From positions 1 through 36,785 of the forward strand of contig CALYOL010000003.1 of the NCBI GenBank assembly GCA_945231345.1: 36,785 nucleotides of DNA, read 5' to 3'. The DNA is from an uncultured Porphyromonadaceae bacterium. GTDB taxonomy: Bacteria; Bacteroidota; Bacteroidia; Bacteroidales; Muribaculaceae. Below are positions 146 through 16,883 of the stretch, piece by piece. Position 1 is the first letter of the stretch. The number at the start of each line of letters is the position of its first letter. Both the position numbers and the translations under genes were made by a program. The notes under the pieces were generated by a model. That model did no database searches. It had not been told where the DNA came from and worked only from the letters and a program-made list of their open reading frames with translations.

Positions 146-1849
146 CTAATTGACAATCACTTTAGCCCTGTCATTTCCTACGACAACAATATATGCTCCA
201 GGCAATAGTTGGGGTGCAACAATTTCTTCATTTGAGTATATTAATACTTTATATACAACATCTCCACAAAGACTATATATCCTACACTCTTCACTTGCGT
301 GCCCTATTACATTAATTACTCCATGCCCCACAGAAATATGCTTGTTCCGACTCATTTCCATACTTTCCGATGAAGCATCTTCAAATGCCAACTTAATAGT
401 TGCGTCTACCACATGACCATTTGAATTTACACTCAAATAAACTTCTCGGTCTCCTACTACAGATTCAATGGGAGCAACTACAAGATTTCCATTTACTATT
501 TCCGCCGTAAAATCGTCAGAAGAAACGCCGATGACGCTTTTTATGATTGCCGAGTCAAGATTGTCCTTATCTGTAGCCCAACCATGTAATAATATTTCCG
601 ACTCCGAACTTCCGCTAACTCTCTGTACACCCAAGTCTGAAACCTCTGGATATTCATTATCAGGAAAGACAGGTACTGACGGGAACCAGTAATTAGTAAT
701 CATGTCATATTCTGCAAGTATTTTGCCGTCTTTATCATATCGACGAAGTATATATGTAGGTGTCTGAAAATTATGAAACAGAGAAACAAACATTTCACCT
801 GTAACAGGATGCGGACGCATTGAACAACCATATATTTGCCATTTAGAATTATCATCAACTCCCTGTTCTTCCGCTTCATCATCTAAATCTATGATTTTAC
901 TGAACTCACCATTGTCTAGATTGTATTTGAAAATCATAGAGCCAGAAAACCAAGAATTATACCCTCCATTCCAGTACAGCGCATTTTCTACTGTTGATGA
1001 ACAAAATCCGTCAGGTGTCCACGCATACCAAGAATTTGCAGGAGGATAATAACCATCTGGCACATCAATCACTCTCACTGAAAGATTTGCCGGATTAACT
1101 TTTAGTAGATACGGCAGTGTAGCACCTGTGCCATTTACATCTGCAGACACACTTACATACACATATCCATCACCTCCAAGGACTACCGAGCCGACCCCTG
1201 CATCGTCGTTTATTATACTCATGGATAATATTTCAGTCACCTCATCATTATCCGGGTCTATTACCAATACACCGGCAGACTGGTGAGCAACGAAAACGCG
1301 ATTATTCACTCTAACCATTGAGCCACATTGCCCTAAGTACAATGAACCGCTACTGTTTCCGCTGCCTTTCACCTGTCCGATTACCTGATATTTGTCCGTA
1401 TCAAACACCCATACACCATTACTTGAAGATATATAGCCTTTATGCTCATTAATTCCGAGATAGCCTCTACCATCACACGAAGCTCCTGACGGATCTATGA
1501 GAGGGGATTGAAATAATACTTTCATAGTCTTTGCATCAGCAACAGTAATGCGCCCTCCCTCAATACTTGCTCCAGGGTCTTTTTCTTGCTTGGCTATAAG
1601 ATAAAACCTGTCACCATATATTTGACCATATTGATTGGTGCAACCCAGTTCCACTCCGGGATTAACAGTTTGGATAACTCGGTACAACCATTGCTCACCT
1701 TCATCATTTTGATAATCTAAATAGTTTATTGTAGAATTTTGGTGACCATACCAATCCTCATTAACAATAAACACGCCTCTGCTGAAATCCAAGTTTCCGG
1801 CAGAAATATACAATGAAGTAATAAAAAGAAGTGTAAAATATTTTCTCAT
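146..1849 (-). CDS. Secreted BtuG-like beta-propeller protein with T9SS-type C-terminal sorting domain
   Basis: 567-aa ORF; signal peptide without lipobox; propeller motif RGVFIVNEDWYGHQNSTINYLDY resembles the BtuG-like ORF at 6093-7250; C-terminus IYSLCGDVV...LLPGAYIVVVGNDRAKVIVN is T9SS type-A-like. Confidence 0.75.
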   Translation of the reverse strand: MRKYFTLLFITSLYISAGNLDFSRGVFIVNEDWYGHQNSTINYLDYQNDEGEQWLYRVIQTVNPGVELGCTNQYGQIYGDRFYLIAKQEKDPGASIEGGRITVADAKTMKVLFQSPLIDPSGASCDGRGYLGINEHKGYISSSNGVWVFDTDKYQVIGQVKGSGNSSGSLYLGQCGSMVRVNNRVFVAHQSAGVLVIDPDNDEVTEILSMSIINDDAGVGSVVLGGDGYVYVSVSADVNGTGATLPYLLKVNPANLSVRVIDVPDGYYPPANSWYAWTPDGFCSSTVENALYWNGGYNSWFSGSMIFKYNLDNGEFSKIIDLDDEAEEQGVDDNSKWQIYGCSMRPHPVTGEMFVSLFHNFQTPTYILRRYDKDGKILAEYDMITNYWFPSVPVFPDNEYPEVSDLGVQRVSGSSESEILLHGWATDKDNLDSAIIKSVIGVSSDDFTAEIVNGNLVVAPIESVVGDREVYLSVNSNGHVVDATIKLAFEDASSESMEMSRNKHISVGHGVINVIGHASEECRIYSLCGDVVYKVLIYSNEEIVAPQLLPGAYIVVVGNDRAKVIVN

Positions 1850-1862
1850 TTTTTTAATCTAT

Positions 1863-3067
1863 TTAGTCAGGTAATTTTGTTTCTGGAATATGCAGGTCTC
1901 TTGCCCCGGAAATCTCCGTAGAGGTTTCACCAATCCACCCACAATACTGATTAATTCCTGTCATAACCCTTACATAATCAATAGCTGGAAGATTTACATA
2001 ATTTCCGTCTTCATCTACAGCCCATGAAATGTCAAACGAATTTAACTCTTCGTATTCATTAGGATGGTTGTCTACATATCCCCAGTCATATGAATACAGT
2101 ACATAGTAGCGTCCTATGCCACTTGTGTCTTCTGCATTTTGAGCGAGACAGGTGCCACAAAAAGACACACTTTCGCCCGAATACCATTTAGGATAATAAT
2201 CCTGCGTGTGAAAACTATTTTTTGCCACATATCCTGTTTTACCCAAACTATCTATCCATGGGATATAGGTAGCGTCTGTAAGGAATCCATCAGGTGACGG
2301 TTTTTTGTCAATGTCCGGACGGTAATATGTAATGGAATAGCCATGTAGCGTCTCCGGCTTATAATATTCACTACCGGCAAGTTCATACCATTTATCATCG
2401 GCAATACCATTGCAATTTTCGTCATACGAAACAAAGACAATCCCTGGCTCTGCTGAGCCTCCTTTCTTTTCCGGATTATTCAGTTCATAAAAGGCATTCC
2501 CGGTAATTAAAAAATCATATCCCGGCAAATTCATCACAGTATGGTCAAATCTGAACGTAACATAACCACCATATGCACCAAGTGAAATCATCACATTATT
2601 CTGTCCACCGATACATTCTTGAGCTTTCCTCACCATGTCGGCATTAGTGTCACCATCCTCATATTGCGGCATTTCATTTATAAATTGCCCCGGAGCAGGA
2701 TTATACTCTATCACTTCTGAAATGTAAGGACTATATTCCACTTCCTCATGCATTACCGTCACCCTGAAATCATGATGATATGGAGTGAAATCATCTATAA
2801 TGTCAAATGAAATGTCATAAGTTCCCTCCTCCGCAGCTATAAATAACAGCCTATCAGACGTAGACATCAACGAATCTATTTCATTTTTGCAATGTAAAGT
2901 CCAGCGATATTCACATCCTGTAAAAGAAGACTTAAGTTCAAGTTTTGTCATACGAGATAGATAGTATTCGCTCTCAATTCCGAGATTTACCATCTGTATA
3001 TCTTCACAACATGACGTAAAACCTAACACCGTCAAAACTATAACAAACAGTATTAAAGAATATTTCA
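1863..3067 (-). CDS. Surface lipoprotein with PKD-like N-terminal domain, B12-locus associated
   Basis: ORF 1863..3092. The internal Met at 3067 gives a clean lipoprotein signal peptide MKYSLILFVIVLTVLGFTSC-CED. Acidic residues follow the lipobox Cys. The upstream Met lies inside a strong hairpin. Confidence 0.7.
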
Positions 3068-3075
3068 TAATAAAA

Positions 3076-3117
3076 GAAATCGTCGGGAGCATGACTAAGC
3101 ATTCTCCTGACGATTTT
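3076..3117 (-). terminator. Intercistronic hairpin followed by T-rich tract (attenuator or mRNA-stability element)
   Basis: Near-perfect inverted repeat GAAATCGTCGGGAGCAT...ATTCTCCTGACGATTTTC. On the minus strand it is followed by TTTCTTTTATT directly before the ATG at 3067. Confidence 0.6.
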
Positions 3118-3132
3118 CTGTTTTTACAATGA

Positions 3133-6051
3133 TTAGAGAATTATTTTTTTAATTATGTTTGATGTCTTAACAAGATAAACACCTTTTGGAAGATTTAAGC
3201 AAGTAGAGAATCTTTCCGAAGTGATTGCCACTGTATCAACATTGCGCCCTGTCATGTCATATACATAGACAATATCTCCAAAAAGTCCTTCTGCCTTAAG
3301 TATGTTACCTTCAACGTAGATTTTTGCGACAGACGTTACACCATCTATTGCATTAGCTTTATCTATCACTACATTGACTGTATGCTCTACCACCACACCT
3401 CGTGATTCCGCATAGATAGTAATATTTGCACTACTTTCAATATCTTTAGATGTCACTATGAGATTCTTGCCATCAATCCTCACATCCGCAATAGCAGACG
3501 CATTTTTAGCATCCACTGAATATTTGATATTGTAGTTAACATCATCCTTATCATTTACAAAATCACTGAGGTCGTAAGTATTCGTTTCACTTGGTTTCAC
3601 ATAGACACAATCAAATCCAGTAAACTCCGGTTCAAATCTATCTACCATAACCGGCATAGCTGGGAAGAAATATCCAGGACGGAGTTTTGTAGTATAATTT
3701 AATTCGCCTGTAGTTCCGTCAATGAAATAATACCATACATTTCGATAATTTGAAGACGATCCACTTGTACATGACACAAGTATCTGATTTGTCGCCACAT
3801 CATAACCGATTGAGCCATAACCACTTGTTGATGCTCCTTCTAATTTTCCTTCCAGTCCTTCTATTGTAAAAAATGGTTCTGTAGGCATCTCATCATCAAC
3901 ATTCCACTTATACACATTACTGAAAGAACCCCATGATGCTCCATTAAAGAAGATTACATTTTCTTTCTTTGAGCCTACAAAGTTTGCTGAGCGCCATGAC
4001 CCCCATCCTGCATCAACACTTACTGGAGCAACTATAGGTTCACTCACTTCTAGTGTTTCAGCATCAATACAATAAATATTATTACCTGCAGCAAACCACA
4101 CTCTACCATCTGCTGTCTGAGTGACTCCTGCTGACTTTGTATCTGAAATGGTTGTTACTAACTCATCGGTTTCACCATCTACTATATGCAGACCGGTAGA
4201 TTGTTGACAAATGAACACATATTTTCCTGCACATACCATATCACCAATCTGACCGCTATATGCGTTCTTGCCAGCAATACCTTCAATGTTTGTTTCTGAG
4301 AGAACAAACTCATCACCCTCAACCGTAAGCACACGCACACCTGTTGCACTTCCGATGTAGTACTTATTAGGATTGACACCAACACAAGAGCGACCATCCG
4401 CACCAATTTCATCAAATGAAGCAAGACGTTTCAGCGTTTTGGCATCTGCTATCACAAGTCTGCCACCACCATCACGCAGGTCACCACCGTCTTTTGCCTG
4501 CTTAGACATTACCACAAGGCGATTTCCATAAACTGCAGCATACTGTGAAGTAGCACCAAAGCTCTGCCATGGATTTTCGCGCTCGTATGCCTTATATGTG
4601 ATATTGTACTCATCATCAACAAAATTAATAGAGCCATTATTATGACCAAACCATTCCTCGTTGAGCCAGAATTGTCCCTTAGTGTAGTCTATTTCCGCAT
4701 TGCGTTCACGGTCTTCCACTACAACTTTGAATCTTGCAGTTTTCCCGCTACCGTCTTTAGATTTATATGTAACGTATGTTTCACCCACATTGAAGGTGGT
4801 AAGTTCATAGAAGTTTCGAGTAGGATTAAATGCTTTCGCTGCATAGATAGTGAACAGTGTCGGGTCTTCAATTTCAATATCAAGAGTTTGCAACGATGCG
4901 TCTTCCGGTTCTACCGTATAGTTTACGGAAATCATTTCTTGATAGCCAATGTGGAGTTCACCGTTTTCATCAAGATTTTCAACTGTAATATTCTTGATAG
5001 GTGTTTCCACAGAAGTGTTTATAGTGAGAGAACAAGTTATAGTAGGGTCACTGTCGCTGACCGCTGTCAGAACTGTAGTACCAACGCCTGTAATAGAGAG
5101 TTTTCCGGTGCGTGAAGCATAAGAAGCAACAGAACCGTCGGAATTTGTGATAGTGAATGTGCCATAGTCTGCATCTTCCGGATATGTGACAATGCTTACT
5201 ATTGCAGTGTCCTTGTACTTCATATCTTTTACGTCGCCTAACACTTCCACATCGTCAAAAGCAAAGCGAATACCTGTGTAAGAAAGTGCACTATGTTCAT
5301 AGTCAAGCTCTCCCCATTTTATTGAAGAGCCCCACGGAGCATTGATATCCATATATCCCCAGCCATTCACGTCTCCATTTTTCAGTTTTACGGAACTCAT
5401 ACCAAGTCCTGAATATGAAAGAGCTGTCAAATCGCTGTCACCCACCCAATAGCTCCAGTAACCGAGGTACCAACCGGACTGCCAGAGAGAAGTGTAAGAA
5501 AGACTGTTGCATTTCCAGTGGTCGTAGTCGTAAGCAGGATAGCCGTATGCGTTCTTATCTATTGGGTGGTCTATCACATGCGACGTTTTGGCTTCATTGA
5601 TAGCATTTTCGCACAGCGTGGGCGTATCACCTGCCGGTGCAGACGTTTGCCCCATAAAAGAATTTACGGAAAAATAGTCAAAACTGATTTTTGGGTCATT
5701 TTGAGCGGTATCAAAGTCAAAATATACTCCGTCTATCATTTTTGAAGACTTGTCACAACCAATTCCGCAAAGAGTATTGCCCATAGAACCTGTATATTGC
5801 GTGAGAATATACAAATCGCCACAATCTTTTGCTACTGCACGAATCATATCCTCGCCTGTAGCTTCACCGCTCCAACGGTATCCCCAAACATAAGTCACGT
5901 CCTTGCCCATATTGTTAAAATGAACAAGTAGTGCGGCAATATTTTCACCACCAGCGTCTCCCGCCCAATACATAATGTCTCTAAACGACACTTCCTGTGC
6001 CTTTAGCAGTGAGGGCATCAAACAAATCAATAACAGTAATTTTTTGAACAT
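3133..6051 (-). CDS. Large secreted multidomain protein: N-terminal surface domain, Ig-like (Big_2-like) domains, BtuG-like propeller, T9SS-type CTD
   Basis: 972-aa ORF; signal peptide MFKKLLLLICLMPSLLKAQ; propeller motif KGQFWLNEEWFGHNNGSINFVDD; C-terminus VYDMTGRNVD...LPKGVYLVKTSNIIKKIIL. Confidence 0.75.
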   Translation of the reverse strand: MFKKLLLLICLMPSLLKAQEVSFRDIMYWAGDAGGENIAALLVHFNNMGKDVTYVWGYRWSGEATGEDMIRAVAKDCGDLYILTQYTGSMGNTLCGIGCDKSSKMIDGVYFDFDTAQNDPKISFDYFSVNSFMGQTSAPAGDTPTLCENAINEAKTSHVIDHPIDKNAYGYPAYDYDHWKCNSLSYTSLWQSGWYLGYWSYWVGDSDLTALSYSGLGMSSVKLKNGDVNGWGYMDINAPWGSSIKWGELDYEHSALSYTGIRFAFDDVEVLGDVKDMKYKDTAIVSIVTYPEDADYGTFTITNSDGSVASYASRTGKLSITGVGTTVLTAVSDSDPTITCSLTINTSVETPIKNITVENLDENGELHIGYQEMISVNYTVEPEDASLQTLDIEIEDPTLFTIYAAKAFNPTRNFYELTTFNVGETYVTYKSKDGSGKTARFKVVVEDRERNAEIDYTKGQFWLNEEWFGHNNGSINFVDDEYNITYKAYERENPWQSFGATSQYAAVYGNRLVVMSKQAKDGGDLRDGGGRLVIADAKTLKRLASFDEIGADGRSCVGVNPNKYYIGSATGVRVLTVEGDEFVLSETNIEGIAGKNAYSGQIGDMVCAGKYVFICQQSTGLHIVDGETDELVTTISDTKSAGVTQTADGRVWFAAGNNIYCIDAETLEVSEPIVAPVSVDAGWGSWRSANFVGSKKENVIFFNGASWGSFSNVYKWNVDDEMPTEPFFTIEGLEGKLEGASTSGYGSIGYDVATNQILVSCTSGSSSNYRNVWYYFIDGTTGELNYTTKLRPGYFFPAMPVMVDRFEPEFTGFDCVYVKPSETNTYDLSDFVNDKDDVNYNIKYSVDAKNASAIADVRIDGKNLIVTSKDIESSANITIYAESRGVVVEHTVNVVIDKANAIDGVTSVAKIYVEGNILKAEGLFGDIVYVYDMTGRNVDTVAITSERFSTCLNLPKGVYLVKTSNIIKKIIL

Positions 6052-6092
6052 AATAAAAATAAATTTTGTGGTTGATAAATATGAGAATTAAT

Positions 6093-7250
6093 TCAATTTC
6101 TAATTGGTAAAAACACTATGTGTGCCGGGATATCTCCTGTTCGCACACTCCATTTCTTTTTTCCTGACTTGTCAAAACAGTAAAGTGTCCCGCTGGAAAC
6201 GTAGTTTTTTGCATCAGTCACAAAAATATCGCCTGTTTCCGGATGGATGGCTATGCCGTATGGAATCGTGATGTCTTTTTCAGTTCCGTCTGTGATGAAA
6301 TTTTGAGACACAACTTCTTTTGTTGTTACATCAATAATTCCGTAAGTGATAGTGTTGGAAGACGTATAGTTGTTCCACTCCGTGGCGTAATAATACAGCG
6401 AATCACCATAAAATGCCATATTGGAACAAGCCACGGGAATGGTATCGGTAACAGTCATCTGATTGTACCCTCTTTTTTTCTCCATCACATATAGCCGTGA
6501 CGGAATATTCTCGTAATTGCCTCGCGATGTCACCCACAGCTTGCCATATTTGTCTTTTTTCAAGCGATGAAGGTTTATACCAACCGGTATTTGCCGAACC
6601 TGCTTGAAATCTACCATCTGAATCACTGAAACAGTATTATCATAGTTCGGTGCACGATAGCCGCCGGAGTTGGCAACATACATATAGTCGCCAATGATTT
6701 CCATTTCCTCCGGCTGATACCCTACTGATACTTTTCCTGTTATTTCAAGAGAAAGTGTATCCACACGATATACTGCCCCCTTTGGAGCATCAGGGTCTAT
6801 GCGGACTGGTCCTACGTATGAACTCACGTATGCTGAGCCACGATAGAAACGAACATAACGGCAATTGGGAATATCGACCTGCCCTAACCTAATTCCTGTT
6901 TTAGCATCCATAACCTCAACCTTATGACTACAGTTAACAACCACATACATTTTACTTCCATATATACCAATGTCATTACCCACGTCACCTAATTCCTTGA
7001 CCACGTTAGGATTTCGTTCTGCATATATGTTCCTCGCATATAGTCCCGTAAAATAGTCAAGATAGTCAATAGTGCATTTATTAGACCCCATATTGCCCTC
7101 GTTCACAAGATAGAAACCACGGATATTTGTGTTCTCTCCAGGAAAATCCGAAATAATATCATACTCTGTAGGCACCACAAGTTCGTCTTCTCGACAACCT
7201 GTGATGCTAAAGAGTATTGACAGAAATAGAAAGTAATATGTATTTTTCAT
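6093..7250 (-). CDS. btuG: BtuG-like surface-exposed beta-propeller lipoprotein (cobalamin capture)
   Basis: 385-aa ORF; lipobox FSITGC followed by REDE; YncE/DUF5074-like propeller (RGFYLVNEGNMGSNKCTIDYLDY); 4 bp downstream of the BtuB-like receptor, under a cobalamin riboswitch. Confidence 0.8.
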   Translation of the reverse strand: MKNTYYFLFLSILFSITGCREDELVVPTEYDIISDFPGENTNIRGFYLVNEGNMGSNKCTIDYLDYFTGLYARNIYAERNPNVVKELGDVGNDIGIYGSKMYVVVNCSHKVEVMDAKTGIRLGQVDIPNCRYVRFYRGSAYVSSYVGPVRIDPDAPKGAVYRVDTLSLEITGKVSVGYQPEEMEIIGDYMYVANSGGYRAPNYDNTVSVIQMVDFKQVRQIPVGINLHRLKKDKYGKLWVTSRGNYENIPSRLYVMEKKRGYNQMTVTDTIPVACSNMAFYGDSLYYYATEWNNYTSSNTITYGIIDVTTKEVVSQNFITDGTEKDITIPYGIAIHPETGDIFVTDAKNYVSSGTLYCFDKSGKKKWSVRTGDIPAHIVFLPIRN

Positions 7251-10869: not shown

Positions 10870-13392
10870 TTAACCCTGAAGAGTATCTTTATTCGGACGT
10901 TCATAAACAGGAAGAAGGTCACATATTCTGTCTACCATCTTAGCGATGACGTTCACATCAGGTATTGTGTTTTCATCACCAAGCATAGCTATCCCTTCGT
11001 CAACAAGACGCTTCGCAAGCGAAGCATCTGTCCAGGAATGTTCATTAAATTGTTTTTTCCAAGAATACAGCCATGCTGTGTAATAATTTAATCGTGCAAG
11101 TTTAAAATCGAGAAGCCAAATCTGGTCATATAACATTCGTGCATGAGCTACATTCTTCACACTTATAACCTTCTCATAAGACTCCTTGACCTGACGGAAA
11201 GTCGCTTTATCAGACTCATTACCATATCTCAACACGTCACTTTGGTAGGTATCAAAAATGCCTTTAACAAGCTCATGCGCACGTTGCCATTCGCCTTTTC
11301 GATAATAATCATCTACCTTCTCACTAAGTTCTACAAGGCGAGAAAATAATTTGTCATGAATTTCACGATTTCCCTCATTTAACTTATATTGCTTACCGAT
11401 AAACTTCAATTCATTTTCAATATCCTTCAATCCCGGAATATAACGGATTTTGGCAAGTGCTGATGATATTTCCTGATTTACGATAGACAAGGGCATTACG
11501 TGTTGCTTTGTCTCCGTAATCCTCTCTGTAACGTCAATTTCAAAATCAAGATATGGGATGTCAACTATAAAAGAGTCAATACGGCCAGACTTATCTGCGT
11601 GAAGACGCAAATTCACTTCACATCCTGCAGGTACATCAGATGGTACATCTTTACCATTAATCACCACATCATAAAGATGAGTACATAGGATTGAACGCGT
11701 CTTCATTGCATCATATTCTTCCTTCTGATATAGCGACATGCGTACCTGGTCGTTTGCATTACCTACACGAATATCACGACGCGTAAGCAAGCCTCGTAAT
11801 ACACCTGTAGCCGGCAGTTTTACACCTTTAAGAAAACCTTCAATAGGCTTGAATACTTCTTCATCATTTTCGCTATTCACACCAAGACCTAACGTAAGCG
11901 GCATAATCGCATCCCCTATTCCATCAATTCCTTGAAGAATCGTGATTGTTGACGGTTCGCATTTGTATGAGCGACCGAGTTCATCATAGCATTTAATATC
12001 AAAAATATTGGCAAAATCAGGCTTTAGCGGTAACTTCACAACCTCCCCGTCTTGGTCAATTTTTATGGCACCCGAAGAGCTGATGCCATCTTGCCTTACA
12101 AATTCCACAAGCACCCAATGCGCATCCACAAAATCGCATTTTGAGCGGAGCAACTTAACCGCTGCATACTCTTCAAGTTCAAGAGATGAACTTTTTACCT
12201 GAATGTCAAGTTGAATCCTGCTTCTATCCCTTGTCTTATCCAACACCTCCTGTGGAATAGACACAGTAGAACCATAAATAGCCGCACCCTGCGATACACA
12301 TGTCATCGGGTCAAGCGACGTGTTTACCGGTGCACCTAATTGTTCGGCAATCATTTTACGCAACGTAGGAGAATATGTAGGACCTCCCACAAGGATAATT
12401 GACGACAGTTGATTACCAGGAATATTATTACGCTCAAGCAGTCGCTTTGCCATTTCTATAGCCTTCTGAAATACCGGTTTCTGAAATGTATCCAGTTGGG
12501 CACGTGAAATTGGCAGCCTCAGTTCTATCTTTGAGCCATAGTCATCAACTCCATAGTCCTCTCCGAGGTCTGTCTCAATTATTATTTTCTCAATTTTTGA
12601 GAGCTTAATTTTAGCCTCCTCCACTTTTGCTTTCCACATAGAGCGGAACTGCTGTGGATTTTTCTTTAATATATTGTCAATTTTATATACCGATGCTAGA
12701 TATGGAATTATCAGCCCGTCAATTATTGCAGTATCAATATCTTTACCGCCGAGCGAATTGCACCCGGTGGTATCAAGCGGAATAAAAACACCATCTTTCT
12801 TTTGCATCAATGCTGCGTCAAAAGTACCGCCACCAAGGTCAAATACCATCCACTTGGCATCTTTAGGTGCGTTTATTCCATACGCAATTGATGCGGCTAC
12901 AGGCTCCTGAATTAGCTCTACGTAGTCGAAGCCGGCAAGTTTCGCCGCCCTCATTGTAGCATCTTTCTGATTATTGTCAAAGATAGCCGGTACGGTGATA
13001 ATTGCAGTTCTAACATCTTTCTTTGCCTCTGTTTGTCGCAGTGCCTTCAACACTTCAGCAGAAAGTTGCTCTGGTGTAAAAAACCTATTCACAATACTTG
13101 AATAATATTCCACATCCTTACCCATTTGACGCTTAAATTCAATAAATGAATTAAACGAATGTTGTGGATTATTATATGAGCGGATATAGTCCTTTTCAAG
13201 ATTTGCTCGAGCTTTATCTCCCACAAGGATATACCCATCATCAGAATATGCCACACACGAAGGTAGCGTCTGATTTAGGGTTTTACTAAGTAAAACGGTG
13301 GCACATCCTCCATCAAACCTCGAAATTGAAGAATTTGTTGTACCAAGGTCTATTCCGTATATGATTTTATTTTCCATAACATAATTATTCAT
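10870..13392 (-). CDS. Divergent Hsp70 family chaperone with inserted domain between NBD and SBD
   Basis: 840 aa; Hsp70 motifs IYGIDLGTTNSSIS, VFDLGGGTFDAAL, IILVGGPTYSPTLRKMI; SBD-like LPATGVLRGLLTRRD; non-canonical region ~380-490. Start may be the internal Met (MENKIIYGIDLG, ATG at 13377). Confidence 0.9.
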   Translation of the reverse strand: MNNYVMENKIIYGIDLGTTNSSISRFDGGCATVLLSKTLNQTLPSCVAYSDDGYILVGDKARANLEKDYIRSYNNPQHSFNSFIEFKRQMGKDVEYYSSIVNRFFTPEQLSAEVLKALRQTEAKKDVRTAIITVPAIFDNNQKDATMRAAKLAGFDYVELIQEPVAASIAYGINAPKDAKWMVFDLGGGTFDAALMQKKDGVFIPLDTTGCNSLGGKDIDTAIIDGLIIPYLASVYKIDNILKKNPQQFRSMWKAKVEEAKIKLSKIEKIIIETDLGEDYGVDDYGSKIELRLPISRAQLDTFQKPVFQKAIEMAKRLLERNNIPGNQLSSIILVGGPTYSPTLRKMIAEQLGAPVNTSLDPMTCVSQGAAIYGSTVSIPQEVLDKTRDRSRIQLDIQVKSSSLELEEYAAVKLLRSKCDFVDAHWVLVEFVRQDGISSSGAIKIDQDGEVVKLPLKPDFANIFDIKCYDELGRSYKCEPSTITILQGIDGIGDAIMPLTLGLGVNSENDEEVFKPIEGFLKGVKLPATGVLRGLLTRRDIRVGNANDQVRMSLYQKEEYDAMKTRSILCTHLYDVVINGKDVPSDVPAGCEVNLRLHADKSGRIDSFIVDIPYLDFEIDVTERITETKQHVMPLSIVNQEISSALAKIRYIPGLKDIENELKFIGKQYKLNEGNREIHDKLFSRLVELSEKVDDYYRKGEWQRAHELVKGIFDTYQSDVLRYGNESDKATFRQVKESYEKVISVKNVAHARMLYDQIWLLDFKLARLNYYTAWLYSWKKQFNEHSWTDASLAKRLVDEGIAMLGDENTIPDVNVIAKMVDRICDLLPVYERPNKDTLQG

Positions 13393-13714
13393 TAAAAGCG
13401 ACTACAACCATTGCAGCCTGTATCATTTCTCCATTAAGACTAATTTCTGGACGAATAACCCTACGAATTATGTTTGCACCCTTGGGCAGATTTTCATCTC
13501 GCTCAAACGACACTTCCATATTGGCTGTCTGTATATACTCCTTGCCTAAGAGCTCTGGAATTTCATAGCCCCTGGATTCAAAAATGGCTCGCAAAGAGTC
13601 TGAACGACTTTTAAGGTTTGCCACACCTTTTACATCGTCATTTATAAAACGCAGATTTTGCTCTATTCTGACCAATTCATTTATCACATCTATTGCAAAG
13701 CCCTGTATTTCCAT
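13385..13714 (-). CDS. Small conserved-looking protein encoded between the J-like and Hsp70 genes
   Basis: 109-aa ORF in a tight operon; 10-bp gap upstream and 8-bp overlap with the Hsp70 ORF. Family not recognised. Confidence 0.65.
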   Translation of the reverse strand: MEIQGFAIDVINELVRIEQNLRFINDDVKGVANLKSRSDSLRAIFESRGYEIPELLGKEYIQTANMEVSFERDENLPKGANIIRRVIRPEISLNGEMIQAAMVVVAFNE

Positions 13715-13724
13715 ATCGCTATGA

Positions 13725-14660
13725 TTATAGATTATTTAATAACAAATCGTAATTATGCTTACACTGCAACTTTACAACACTACTTGCTGCAGTGTTTGTC
13801 GCAAATCGAAGTGAACTTATTGCATTTTTTGCCGGGATAAATCCGGCATTATATCCATTTACTGACAATTTCAGCACTGTTTGCGCAATAATATCGCGCA
13901 TATATCCAGTTTTATTGCTGTCAACCATTACATTTGAAGCCTTTTCCAATAGCGCCTTACTACGGTTTATAAATGGTAATAATACGTCACCGGATAATTG
14001 CGGAGAAACATTTCTTGCAATGCCTATTTCCTTATCCAGTTCTGTCTGTATTTTCCCATACTCATAATCTATCAGCACCGATAACACATTATTGCTTATA
14101 CTTTTTGCCGCACTATATGCAGGAGCAAGCATGTCAAAAGTATAATGTGAAGCAAGAACACTGGTCAATTTCATTGAAAGGTGTTCAGGAGATGTATTTA
14201 TATCTAAATCATAAACAGACGAGAGAAAATCTAACCTAAGGCTATTATCGTAAAACAATTTCACGTAATAATCTATGGCAACACCAATTTTCCCTTTTAT
14301 AAGACTCGACACAGCACTGTTCAATACCGATGAATAGCACGTCAAATCAGAGCAAATACGGCTTGTCCCTCTATTGAAATCATCAATAAATTTCACATCA
14401 CGCTCTGAAGTTATTGCAAACCATGTCATTGCCGCTTTCAGCCTTTCGTCAGGCGACTGCAACGCCGTTTCAGCACGGTTCACACTATTTACAGACCGAA
14501 TGGGTGGAGCAAGGACATTTTCAGCATCTGTAGAAAATCTTTTATATTTTTTTACGAATGTAAAAGCCTTAAGCATGCCAATATTTGCCAAAACCTCACG
14601 CCGGCTCGCATTTATAGGCAATCCGATTATTCGATAAGGGTTTGTCAATATGGCACGCAT
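13725..14660 (-). CDS. J-domain-like (HPD-lacking) helical protein, putative Hsp70 partner
   Basis: 311 aa; N-terminus NPYRIIGLPINASRREVLANIGMLKAF resembles helix I-II of a J-domain, with a downstream LQSPDERLKAAMTWF block; no HPD motif; encoded next to an Hsp70. Confidence 0.65.
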   Translation of the reverse strand: MRAILTNPYRIIGLPINASRREVLANIGMLKAFTFVKKYKRFSTDAENVLAPPIRSVNSVNRAETALQSPDERLKAAMTWFAITSERDVKFIDDFNRGTSRICSDLTCYSSVLNSAVSSLIKGKIGVAIDYYVKLFYDNSLRLDFLSSVYDLDINTSPEHLSMKLTSVLASHYTFDMLAPAYSAAKSISNNVLSVLIDYEYGKIQTELDKEIGIARNVSPQLSGDVLLPFINRSKALLEKASNVMVDSNKTGYMRDIIAQTVLKLSVNGYNAGFIPAKNAISSLRFATNTAASSVVKLQCKHNYDLLLNNL

Positions 14661-14696: not shown

Positions 14697-16883
14697 TTAA
14701 TTTGCCAATTCAGAAAGGAATTTTATGCGCACAAGACGTATTTCCTCCTCAGTGCAATCCATTCCGAGCTCTTCAATAGCGGCCTCAAGGTCATCACTTT
14801 CGCTTTCTTTGAAATAGTCGTATATATCGGCTTGCTTATCTTCATCAATCACCTCGTCTACGAAATAATTAATGTTTATCTTAGAGCCTGAATACACTAT
14901 AGCCTCTATCTGGTCAAGGAGTTCGTCAAATTCAAGCCCTTTAGACTCAGCCAGCTCGTCAAGCGCAATTCGCCTGTCAATAGCCTGGATGATGGCTATG
15001 CGCATCTTCTGTTTGCTCTTGCTTGGCACAGTTCTCACCCTTAAGTCTTCAGGGCGTTCAATCTCGTTTTCCTCAACATGCATTTTTATCACGTCAAGGA
15101 ATACTTTTCCATATCTCTTTGCCTTTCCTTGCCCTACTCCCGGGATTGTAGCCAATTCTTCCATCGTAATGGGATACGTTGTGGCCATAGCCTCAAGGGA
15201 TGGGTCTTGGAATATTACGTAAGGCGGGAGTCCAAGCTTTTTTGCCTCTTTTCTTCTCAAGTCCTTGAGTATGGAATACAATTCTGGGTCCACTGCGCAT
15301 GCAGCACCGGATTTCATTATCATCGGCTCTTCATCTTCTGTAAAATCATTGTCCTCCACTATCTTGAAAGACTCCGGTTTTTTGAGAAATTTCTGTCCTT
15401 TGGCCGTAATCTTTATCAGACCATAATTTTCAATATCTTTGTTTAGGTACCCGGCTATTATCGCCTGGCGAATGACTGCATTTAAGAATTTATCATCAGA
15501 TTTTTCTTCACAGCCAAACACATCAAGGTCCTCGTGATGATAAAACTTAACATCGGCTGTAGCTTTGCCAAGCATTACATCAATTATATGATTAGCCTTA
15601 AATTTTTCTTTAAGTGCGGTTACCGTTTCCATCACCGCGCAGAGTTCATCTTTTGCTTCCACTTGTTTCTTTGGGTTTAGACAGTTGTCACAGTTCCCAC
15701 AGTTATCTTCAGTGTATTCTTCTCCAAAATAATGTAACAGCGTTCGCCTGCGGCAAACTGAGGATTCTGCATAGCTTGCAGTTTCTATAAGCAACTGCTT
15801 TCCTATTTCCTGCTCTGCTATGGGCTTGCTCTGCATGAATTTTTCTAATTTTTGCAAATCCTTTGCCGAGTAATACGTTATACAAAGCCCTTCTCCTCCA
15901 TCACGCCCTGCACGACCCGTCTCTTGATAGTATCCTTCAAGCGACTTGGGAATATCATAGTGGATTACAAACCTAACATCCGGCTTATCGATACCCATAC
16001 CGAAAGCAATAGTAGCGACAATCACGTCAACCTTCTCCAACAGAAACGCATCCTGATTTTCAGTACGCGTCACGCCATCCATTCCGGCATGATACGGCAG
16101 TGCTTTAATGTTATTTATTTGGAGTAATTCTGCAAGTTCTTCTACCTTTTTTCTACTTAGACAGTAAATGATGCCTGATTTCCCTTCCTGGCTCTTCACG
16201 AAACGGATAATATCCTTATCCACATTCGCCGTCTTCGGACGCACCTCGTAATATAAGTTTGGTCTATTAAAAGAAGACTTATACACGCAGGCCTCCTGCA
16301 TACCGAGGTTTTTCTGTATATCATGCTGAACCTTAGGCGTAGCTGTAGCCGTCAGTGCAATTACAGGTCGAACACCTATTTCATTTATTATTGGACGGAT
16401 GCGCCTGTATTCCGGTCTGAAATCATGTCCCCATTCAGAGATACAGTGTGCTTCATCTACCGCGTAGAACGAAATTGGGACTGTTTTAAGAAATTCAATA
16501 TTTTCCTCCTTGGTGAGTGACTCCGGTGCCACATATAGCAATTTTGTCTTCCCGGATGCTATATCGCTTTTAACCTGGTCTATTGCAGACTTGCTAAGAC
16601 TTGAGTTCAGAAAGTGAGCCACAACATCGTCCTCTGAAAAATTGCGCATTGCATCTACCTGATTCTTCATCAGAGCAATAAGCGGAGATATGACGATTGC
16701 AGTGCCTTCCATCAAAAGTGCCGGCAACTGGTAACACAGCGATTTGCCCCCACCTGTGGGCATGAGTACAAAGGTGTCGTGACCTTCAAGCAGCGACATC
16801 ATAATTACTTCTTGATTGCCTTTGAACGTGTCAAATCCAAAGTGAAGTTTCAGTGCTTCTAATAAGTCTTTCTTTGTAATCAT
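14697..16883 (-). CDS. recQ: ATP-dependent DNA helicase RecQ
   Basis: 728 aa; MPTGGGKSLCYQLPA, DEAHCISEWGHDFRPEYRRI, QETGRAGRDG, RQC Cys residues (CGNCDNC), HRDC-like C-terminal regions. Confidence 0.95.
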   Translation of the reverse strand: MITKKDLLEALKLHFGFDTFKGNQEVIMMSLLEGHDTFVLMPTGGGKSLCYQLPALLMEGTAIVISPLIALMKNQVDAMRNFSEDDVVAHFLNSSLSKSAIDQVKSDIASGKTKLLYVAPESLTKEENIEFLKTVPISFYAVDEAHCISEWGHDFRPEYRRIRPIINEIGVRPVIALTATATPKVQHDIQKNLGMQEACVYKSSFNRPNLYYEVRPKTANVDKDIIRFVKSQEGKSGIIYCLSRKKVEELAELLQINNIKALPYHAGMDGVTRTENQDAFLLEKVDVIVATIAFGMGIDKPDVRFVIHYDIPKSLEGYYQETGRAGRDGGEGLCITYYSAKDLQKLEKFMQSKPIAEQEIGKQLLIETASYAESSVCRRRTLLHYFGEEYTEDNCGNCDNCLNPKKQVEAKDELCAVMETVTALKEKFKANHIIDVMLGKATADVKFYHHEDLDVFGCEEKSDDKFLNAVIRQAIIAGYLNKDIENYGLIKITAKGQKFLKKPESFKIVEDNDFTEDEEPMIMKSGAACAVDPELYSILKDLRRKEAKKLGLPPYVIFQDPSLEAMATTYPITMEELATIPGVGQGKAKRYGKVFLDVIKMHVEENEIERPEDLRVRTVPSKSKQKMRIAIIQAIDRRIALDELAESKGLEFDELLDQIEAIVYSGSKININYFVDEVIDEDKQADIYDYFKESESDDLEAAIEELGMDCTEEEIRLVRIKFLSELAN

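Follow-up and report, generated by a model that had tools for sequence, protein, structure and literature searches.

Can an Hsp70 work with a J-like partner that lacks the HPD (histidine-proline-aspartate) motif? This question is raised by three genes in a 36,785-nt stretch of DNA (the window, in all that follows) from contig CALYOL010000003.1 of an uncultured Porphyromonadaceae bacterium. The genes occupy positions 10870-14660 on the minus strand and consist of three open reading frames (ORFs) in one direction, encoding proteins of 311, 109 and 840 amino acids (aa), with a 10-bp gap after the first and an 8-bp overlap between the second and third. An earlier note on this DNA (the original prediction) had described the same packing, and had interpreted the trio as a self-contained, specialised chaperone module made up of an HPD-less pseudo-J scaffold, an unrecognised 109-aa cofactor or substrate adaptor and an Hsp70. 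The observation itself is confirmed and the interpretation is partly supported. We consider it probable that the trio is a dedicated Hsp70 machine, apart from DnaK, DnaJ and GrpE, in which the contact between the J-like protein and the Hsp70 has been re-wired on both sides.

The 840-aa protein (10870..13392, minus strand, as are all features of the trio) belongs to the Hsp70 superfamily. Residues 12-379 match PF00012 with E=1.5e-64 (218.7 bits, cut-off 20.6), and the nucleotide-binding domain (NBD) was placed at residues 10-378 (12259..13365) using PF00012 and phmmer. The equivalents of the catalytic DnaK residues D8, E171, T199 and D201 are retained in at least 79 of 80 relatives. The equivalent of K70 is K87 in the window protein; this assignment was taken from the phmmer alignment, as the joint MAFFT alignment places the K70 column wrongly. 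With K70, E171, T199, D201 and the phosphate-loop residues all accounted for, the intact ATPase motifs noted earlier are borne out. The protein is nevertheless divergent: it scores 237 bits against NCBIfam TIGR02350, the DnaK equivalog, which has a cut-off of 822.55, and is far under the HscA equivalog cut-off too.

In the AlphaFold model of this Hsp70 (predicted local distance difference test, pLDDT, 88.6), the NBD is followed by a beta domain (residues 393-487, 11932..12216), a second beta domain at approximately residues 500-620 and a long helical lid (lid-like region, residues 635-825, 10918..11490). Foldseek matched the model to full-length DnaK (E=1.8e-39) and to the 518-residue form of BiP that includes the NBD and the substrate-binding domain (SBD), over 660 alignment columns with TMt 0.80. 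Because the BiP match is better than the NBD by itself could give, and over 140 query columns are in excess, residues 393-487 are read as an additional beta domain inserted at the place of the interdomain linker, and residues ~500-620 as the predicted SBD-beta (placed at residues 495-620, 11533..11910). The additional domain has no Pfam match, and the DnaK interdomain linker, VLLLDVTPLSLGIE, is not present in the window Hsp70; the extra domain stands there instead.

The 311-aa protein (13725..14660) has no match to a Pfam family. To compare it with J domains, a profile of its N-terminal 85 residues with 79 relatives was aligned to 30 canonical J domains using hhalign, with the TPR-type C-terminal matches (query 320 onwards) of the three-row J-like profile left out of the relatives. 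The alignment was collinear across 61 columns, with P=7.9e-5 and a score of 27.2, compared with 14.8 for the best of 93 decoy slices and 10.2 for the reversed alignment. Pfam DnaJ is not among the families listed for the 79 members. The AlphaFold model (pLDDT 93.9) contains helices at residues 8-11, 20-35, 57-68 and 70-78 (pLDDT 95-97), and these follow one another as J-domain helices I-IV do, the fold being judged by helix order alone. Together, the profile and the model define a J-like domain at residues 7-80 (14421..14642); the remainder of the model is a helical array that is TPR-like by profile scores. The N-terminus is thus J-like, as had been suspected. However, the HPD motif that lies between helices II and III is missing from all 87 of the 87 relatives, which have the consensus V-G-K/R, usually VGK, at its place. 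The window copy has V-K-K there (codons 36-38, 14547..14555). In several loci (L121, L129, L112, L054 and L101), two to four tandem J-like genes precede a single GrpE-like gene and a single Hsp70 gene, which suggests that the tandem copies are interchangeable client receptors.

In the DnaK-DnaJ structure, N170 and T173 of DnaK face the HPD loop, as does R167. All three positions are changed in the Hsp70s of this system, with R167 replaced by E in 79/80, N170 by Q in 80/80 and T173 by I or V in 80/80, whereas the canonical DnaKs from 30 relatives have R, N and T at positions 167, 170 and 173 in every case. In the window Hsp70, the segment E-L-I-Q-E-P-V (residues 159-165, aligned with DnaK 167-173; 12898..12918) has E159, Q162 and V165 in place of R167, N170 and T173, and the catalytic E171 is retained as E163. 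Changes at DnaK R167 are known to uncouple DnaJ (PMC7289447), and R167H in DnaK suppresses DnaJ D35N in Escherichia coli (PMC5519331, PMC7289447). HPD and R167 have both been lost, and each side has its own conserved replacement residues; this fits a J-like protein and an Hsp70 that have been re-matched to each other, and not necessarily an Hsp70 with a dead J protein. The earlier label of pseudo-J is thus correct in that the domain is J-like and lacks HPD, but the altered HPD-contact residues of the Hsp70 may be better accommodated by a re-matched pair. Because HPD has become V-G-K/R and R167/N170/T173 have become E/Q/I-V, we infer that the pair is orthogonal to the canonical partners and that the chaperone machine is co-adapted, separate from DnaK/DnaJ.

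The 109-aa protein (13385..13714) can be described as unrecognised only in the sense that no family scored above its curated cut-off. Residues 8-106 align with positions 68-164 of the 165 in the PF01025 (GrpE) model with E=0.0097 and in the right register. When the wing domains of relatives were cut free of their coiled coils, 14 of 53 matched PF01025 (best E=1.2e-5), and the wing consensus, GKPY...EG...GxQIITxIIKPQVNYxGxMIQ, shows the pattern and register of the GrpE beta-wing. In searches of the PDB, the full-length GrpE-like profile found coiled-coil matches only and the wing profile found nothing significant. The protein is most probably, on its sequence, the beta-wing of a GrpE-type nucleotide exchange factor, and this replaces the earlier proposal of a cofactor or adaptor of unknown kind. 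The trio now looks like a full J/GrpE/Hsp70 set.

The window copy consists of the wing only and has no signal, coiled coil or transmembrane segment. In the full systems described below, the N-terminus of the GrpE-like protein is usually hydrophobic (83/88); a coiled coil comes next, followed by a transmembrane segment (78/88) and, last, the wing. The side after the transmembrane segment is the more basic one in 76 of 78, and a periplasmic coil and a cytoplasmic wing are therefore predicted, such that the full-system protein would cross the inner membrane. GrpE itself has long N-terminal dimerisation helices with no membrane between them and the wing; the window copy lacks such helices, and in the full systems the coil is predicted to be across the transmembrane segment from the wing. 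In the RefSeq record NC_015512.1 (L237/L257), the GrpE-like protein is annotated as 'septum formation initiator' and the J-like protein as 'CFI-box-CTERM domain-containing protein', and because of these names the system is hidden in annotation.

A genome scan seeded with the GrpE-like protein alone recovered at least 163 loci, mostly in Bacteroidota, and 80 of these were kept for neighbour analysis. In nearly all of the 80, the genes are in the order J-like, GrpE-like, Hsp70, pseudokinase-AAA and TerB-like, abbreviated J-G-K(-S-T). The complete JGKST set is present in 47 loci, and most of the remainder either end at contig edges or lack S and T. Median intergenic gaps are 3 bp (J-G), 12 bp (G-K) and 5 bp (S-T). 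The S protein includes a kinase-like domain (PF00069), in which the HRD aspartate and lysine positions are mostly substituted (H-N-E/D ... T), and an AAA domain (PF00004), with invariant Walker A/B and arginine fingers and an aromatic residue at the pore position in 69/69. The T protein matches TerB. The conserved order of the same three genes in dozens of genomes is more than chance, and supports the claim of a specialised Hsp70 module. The original prediction has thereby come through both of the checks it named as able to refute it, on the J-like N-terminus and on synteny in other genomes. However, the trio is not the whole of it, as it appears to be a stripped-down form of a five-gene, membrane-linked system that is patchy across Bacteroidota and apparently undescribed. 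Two further families recur in these loci. A small membrane protein, encoded mostly downstream of the TerB-like gene in 26/85 loci (e.g. L058, 13066-14481), is a possible sixth component, and a repeat protein is encoded between the Hsp70 and pseudokinase-AAA genes in approximately 15 loci (e.g. L065, 13287-14441).

Of 396 genomes sampled from across the phylum, 6 encode the GrpE-like protein. The module was also seen in records labelled Clostridia, Dojkabacteria, Oceanicaulis and Nitrosomonadaceae (L066, L093, L117 and L125, respectively). As all four are metagenome-assembled genomes, mis-binning is possible for these records from outside the Bacteroidota.

Eight genomes of the genus were compared, and the trio is present in just two of them, the window genome and G003. 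In the window, recQ (14697..16883, minus strand; identified by family search and neighbour comparison) is the fixed flank upstream of the trio, with clpX and clpP beyond it, and an acyltransferase gene lies downstream of the trio. In G003, the trio is exactly between recQ and glnS, and in the sister species G001, G004, G006 and G007 recQ is directly followed by glnS; recQ of G005 has a different neighbour. The window copy thus occupies a site at which several sister species have recQ-glnS. A foreign base composition of the window trio was ruled out, as its G+C content (0.37-0.43) equals that of the surroundings. Between the window genome and G003, RecQ is 82% identical, but the identities are only 49% for the Hsp70, 46% for the GrpE-like protein and 28% for the J-like protein, and the trio therefore evolves much faster than its flank. 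Neither the window genome (85% complete) nor G003 (98% complete) has the pseudokinase-AAA; only FtsH-type matches were found in them. As there is no room for an anchor upstream of the GrpE-like gene, the window copy is, judged by its sequence, a soluble, fast-evolving three-gene remnant. Canonical DnaK, DnaJ and GrpE are encoded by separate genes in G003 and G026, and the window genome shows canonical DnaJ and GrpE.

A working cycle can be proposed for the dedicated machine. The J-like protein would bind clients via its TPR-like helices, and its HPD-less domain would dock on the Hsp70 encoded by the adjacent gene. The Hsp70 would then hydrolyse ATP and clamp the client, and release of ADP by the GrpE-like wing would reset the cycle. 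In the five-gene form, taken as ancestral, a transmembrane exchange factor would be at work and the pseudokinase-fused AAA unfoldase would receive the client. Because that exchange factor is predicted to span the membrane and the unfoldase to take the client, the cycle could be gated by a signal from the membrane or envelope. With no AAA, TerB-like gene or membrane anchors, the window copy would be a soluble hold-and-release trio. The gene order, the ATPase residues, the loss of HPD and R167 and the predicted topology were established by computation; from these we infer complex formation, ATPase stimulation, nucleotide exchange and client handling. A more far-reaching reading is that the full system represents a new, membrane-gated class of chaperone. 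Here, a periplasmic coil would control a GrpE-type wing that resets the Hsp70, a charge-rewired J domain without HPD would drive the Hsp70, which would pass clients to the pseudokinase-AAA, and the whole would be an accessory of phage defence or of an envelope stress response, with the window trio a soluble offshoot. We regard this as doubtful.

Several results weigh against the roles assigned to the three proteins. Searched with Foldseek, the whole-chain model of the J-like protein found no PDB match at E<=1e-3, and the weak matches were TPR-like only. The 109-aa protein scores 16.0 bits, below the PF01025 gathering score of 25.8, and the hhalign comparison with local GrpEs was weak (18.9 compared with 17.4 for the best decoy), though collinear through the C-terminus; because of this we refer to the protein as GrpE-like rather than GrpE. 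The SBD-beta of the Hsp70 is backed by the AlphaFold and Foldseek results, and its sequence similarity is not significant. Finally, the alignment of K38 of the J-like protein with DnaJ D35 or R36 is uncertain by one residue, and as a consequence a clean charge swap at the contact is only a hypothesis.

Like the canonical DnaK-DnaJ-GrpE machine, the trio has the three roles by homology, namely an Hsp70 with an intact ATPase site, a J-like partner and a GrpE-type wing. It differs in lacking HPD, in the replacement of R167/N170/T173, in the extra beta domain between the NBD and the SBD, and in an exchange factor that is membrane-spanning in the full systems and wing-only in the window; moreover, the canonical genes coexist with it in relatives. 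An HPD-less J-like protein beside an Hsp70 and a GrpE-type factor is also found in the mitochondrial Pam16/Pam18 import motor. However, Pam16 is understood to act through the HPD-bearing Pam18, whereas no HPD-bearing J gene was recognised in the module. The Hsp70-ClpB (KJE-B) disaggregase resembles the five-gene form in placing an Hsp70 set beside an AAA unfoldase, but here an FtsH/Cdc48-like AAA domain is joined to a pseudokinase, and the window genome does not encode it. For the GAP1-N2 conflict systems, gene neighbourhoods have been described that include Hsp70, GrpE and a DnaJ-fused protein; these systems are GTPase-centred and mostly found in Actinobacteria and Firmicutes (PMC7159879), whereas the present system has a pseudokinase-AAA and is mainly found in Bacteroidota. 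No GTPase was found among the recurring neighbour families, though no dedicated search for the GAP1-N2 domain or a GTPase was made. CnuD of the CoCoNuT systems is likewise an Hsp70-like protein in restriction and defence neighbourhoods, but its nucleotide motifs are degenerate, it is tied to McrBC and no GrpE or DnaJ is mentioned (PMC11090510), whereas the ATPase motifs of the present Hsp70 are intact.

Other explanations of the trio were considered. In one, the J protein is dead, i.e. the J-like protein is a helical scaffold only, and the exchange factor alone runs the Hsp70, which acts as a nucleotide-dependent switch or holdase without J-stimulated hydrolysis, as proposed for non-canonical Hsp70s such as Ssz1 or CnuD. 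The loss of HPD in every relative, the loss of R167, whose alteration uncouples DnaK from DnaJ (PMC7289447), and the whole beta domain in place of the NBD-SBD linker are consistent with this. However, all of the ATPase residues are retained, whereas the motifs of CnuD are degenerate; V-G-K/R and E/Q/I-V are themselves conserved, which is not expected from relaxed loss; and at nearly every locus a J-like gene is found next to those for the GrpE-like protein and the Hsp70. We therefore consider a dead J protein unlikely. Decay of the window copy, such that what is left of the five-gene system is degrading and has little function, is less likely again. The absent pseudokinase-AAA and TerB-like genes, a GrpE-like protein cut to 109 aa and the very fast divergence from the sister copy would fit it, but the three frames are intact in both species, and the ATPase residues, the fold and the tight packing are retained. 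Other forms without S and T exist (L112, L121 and L129), and hence the trio seems to be a viable form. It is highly improbable that the cell's own DnaJ and GrpE, though encoded in the genome, serve the window Hsp70, with the two small genes specifying clients or regulators, as the DnaJ-contact residues R167, N170 and T173 are all altered and the window-type Hsp70 is accompanied by the J-like and GrpE-like genes.

A role in anti-phage defence or conflict, in which the chaperone would act during infection as a sensor or remodeller of phage or host proteins, is compatible with the dedicated, re-wired machine, and can be entertained tentatively. In G178 (contig C6), a full module is inside a type I BREX operon, in the order BrxA-BrxB-BrxC-module-PglX...PglZ-BrxL; ZorA/ZorB-like, HNH and reverse-transcriptase-like genes also precede PglZ and BrxL (L049 and L051). 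Plasmid pHALHY02 of Haliscomenobacter hydrossis carries a full module beside BREX, McrBC-like and SIR2 genes. In G326 the module adjoins HsdM/HsdS, and in G457 it lies beside an integrase gene and phage-like genes (for G178, G326 and G457, genes were named by reading the sequences, without family searches). The nearest neighbours included strong matches to type I methyltransferase, Mokosh, SoFic and DRT that were mostly missing from a random control of equal size, though not genome-matched. The patchy distribution and fast evolution would also suit such a role, and there are precedents in the GAP1-N2 systems that include Hsp70, GrpE and DnaJ (PMC7159879) and in bNACHT25, which requires DnaJ (PMC12169576). 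However, most loci have no defence gene within 10 kb, and an association with defence is not supported for the loci as a whole. The window copy has no defence neighbour, and none of the BREX genes BrxC, PglZ and BrxX/PglX is near it. PADLOC gave no match to the module itself, and PADLOC and PHROGs were uninformative for the trio. No match to the window J-like protein was found in plasmids and phages using tblastn, nor to the GrpE-like wing in viral contigs. The main text of a 2026 BREX survey makes no mention of Hsp70, GrpE, DnaJ or TerB (PMC12839542). The link to defence is thus suggestive but not established.

A second non-canonical set was noted in the window genome (contig C70, 252-4339; L016). 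It includes a lidless Hsp70 of 500 aa, a MORN-repeat protein of 559 aa and a protein of 282 aa that matches the GrpE coiled coil (E=8.4e-10). Hsp70s resembling this one are present in G002, G003 and G005, the last of which also has a similar GrpE match. Elsewhere in the window (146-7250), three DUF5074 proteins are encoded near one another, adjoining a TonB-dependent receptor that resembles a B12 receptor.

HPD is regarded as the sole indispensable feature of J-domain action, and the contact between HPD and R167 as the trigger of hydrolysis by Hsp70. In a widespread family with both sides of this contact altered and the ATPase site intact, the need for HPD can be tested directly against that for a matched pair. 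The predicted membrane-spanning exchange factor of the full systems would be a new route by which a signal from outside could control an Hsp70.

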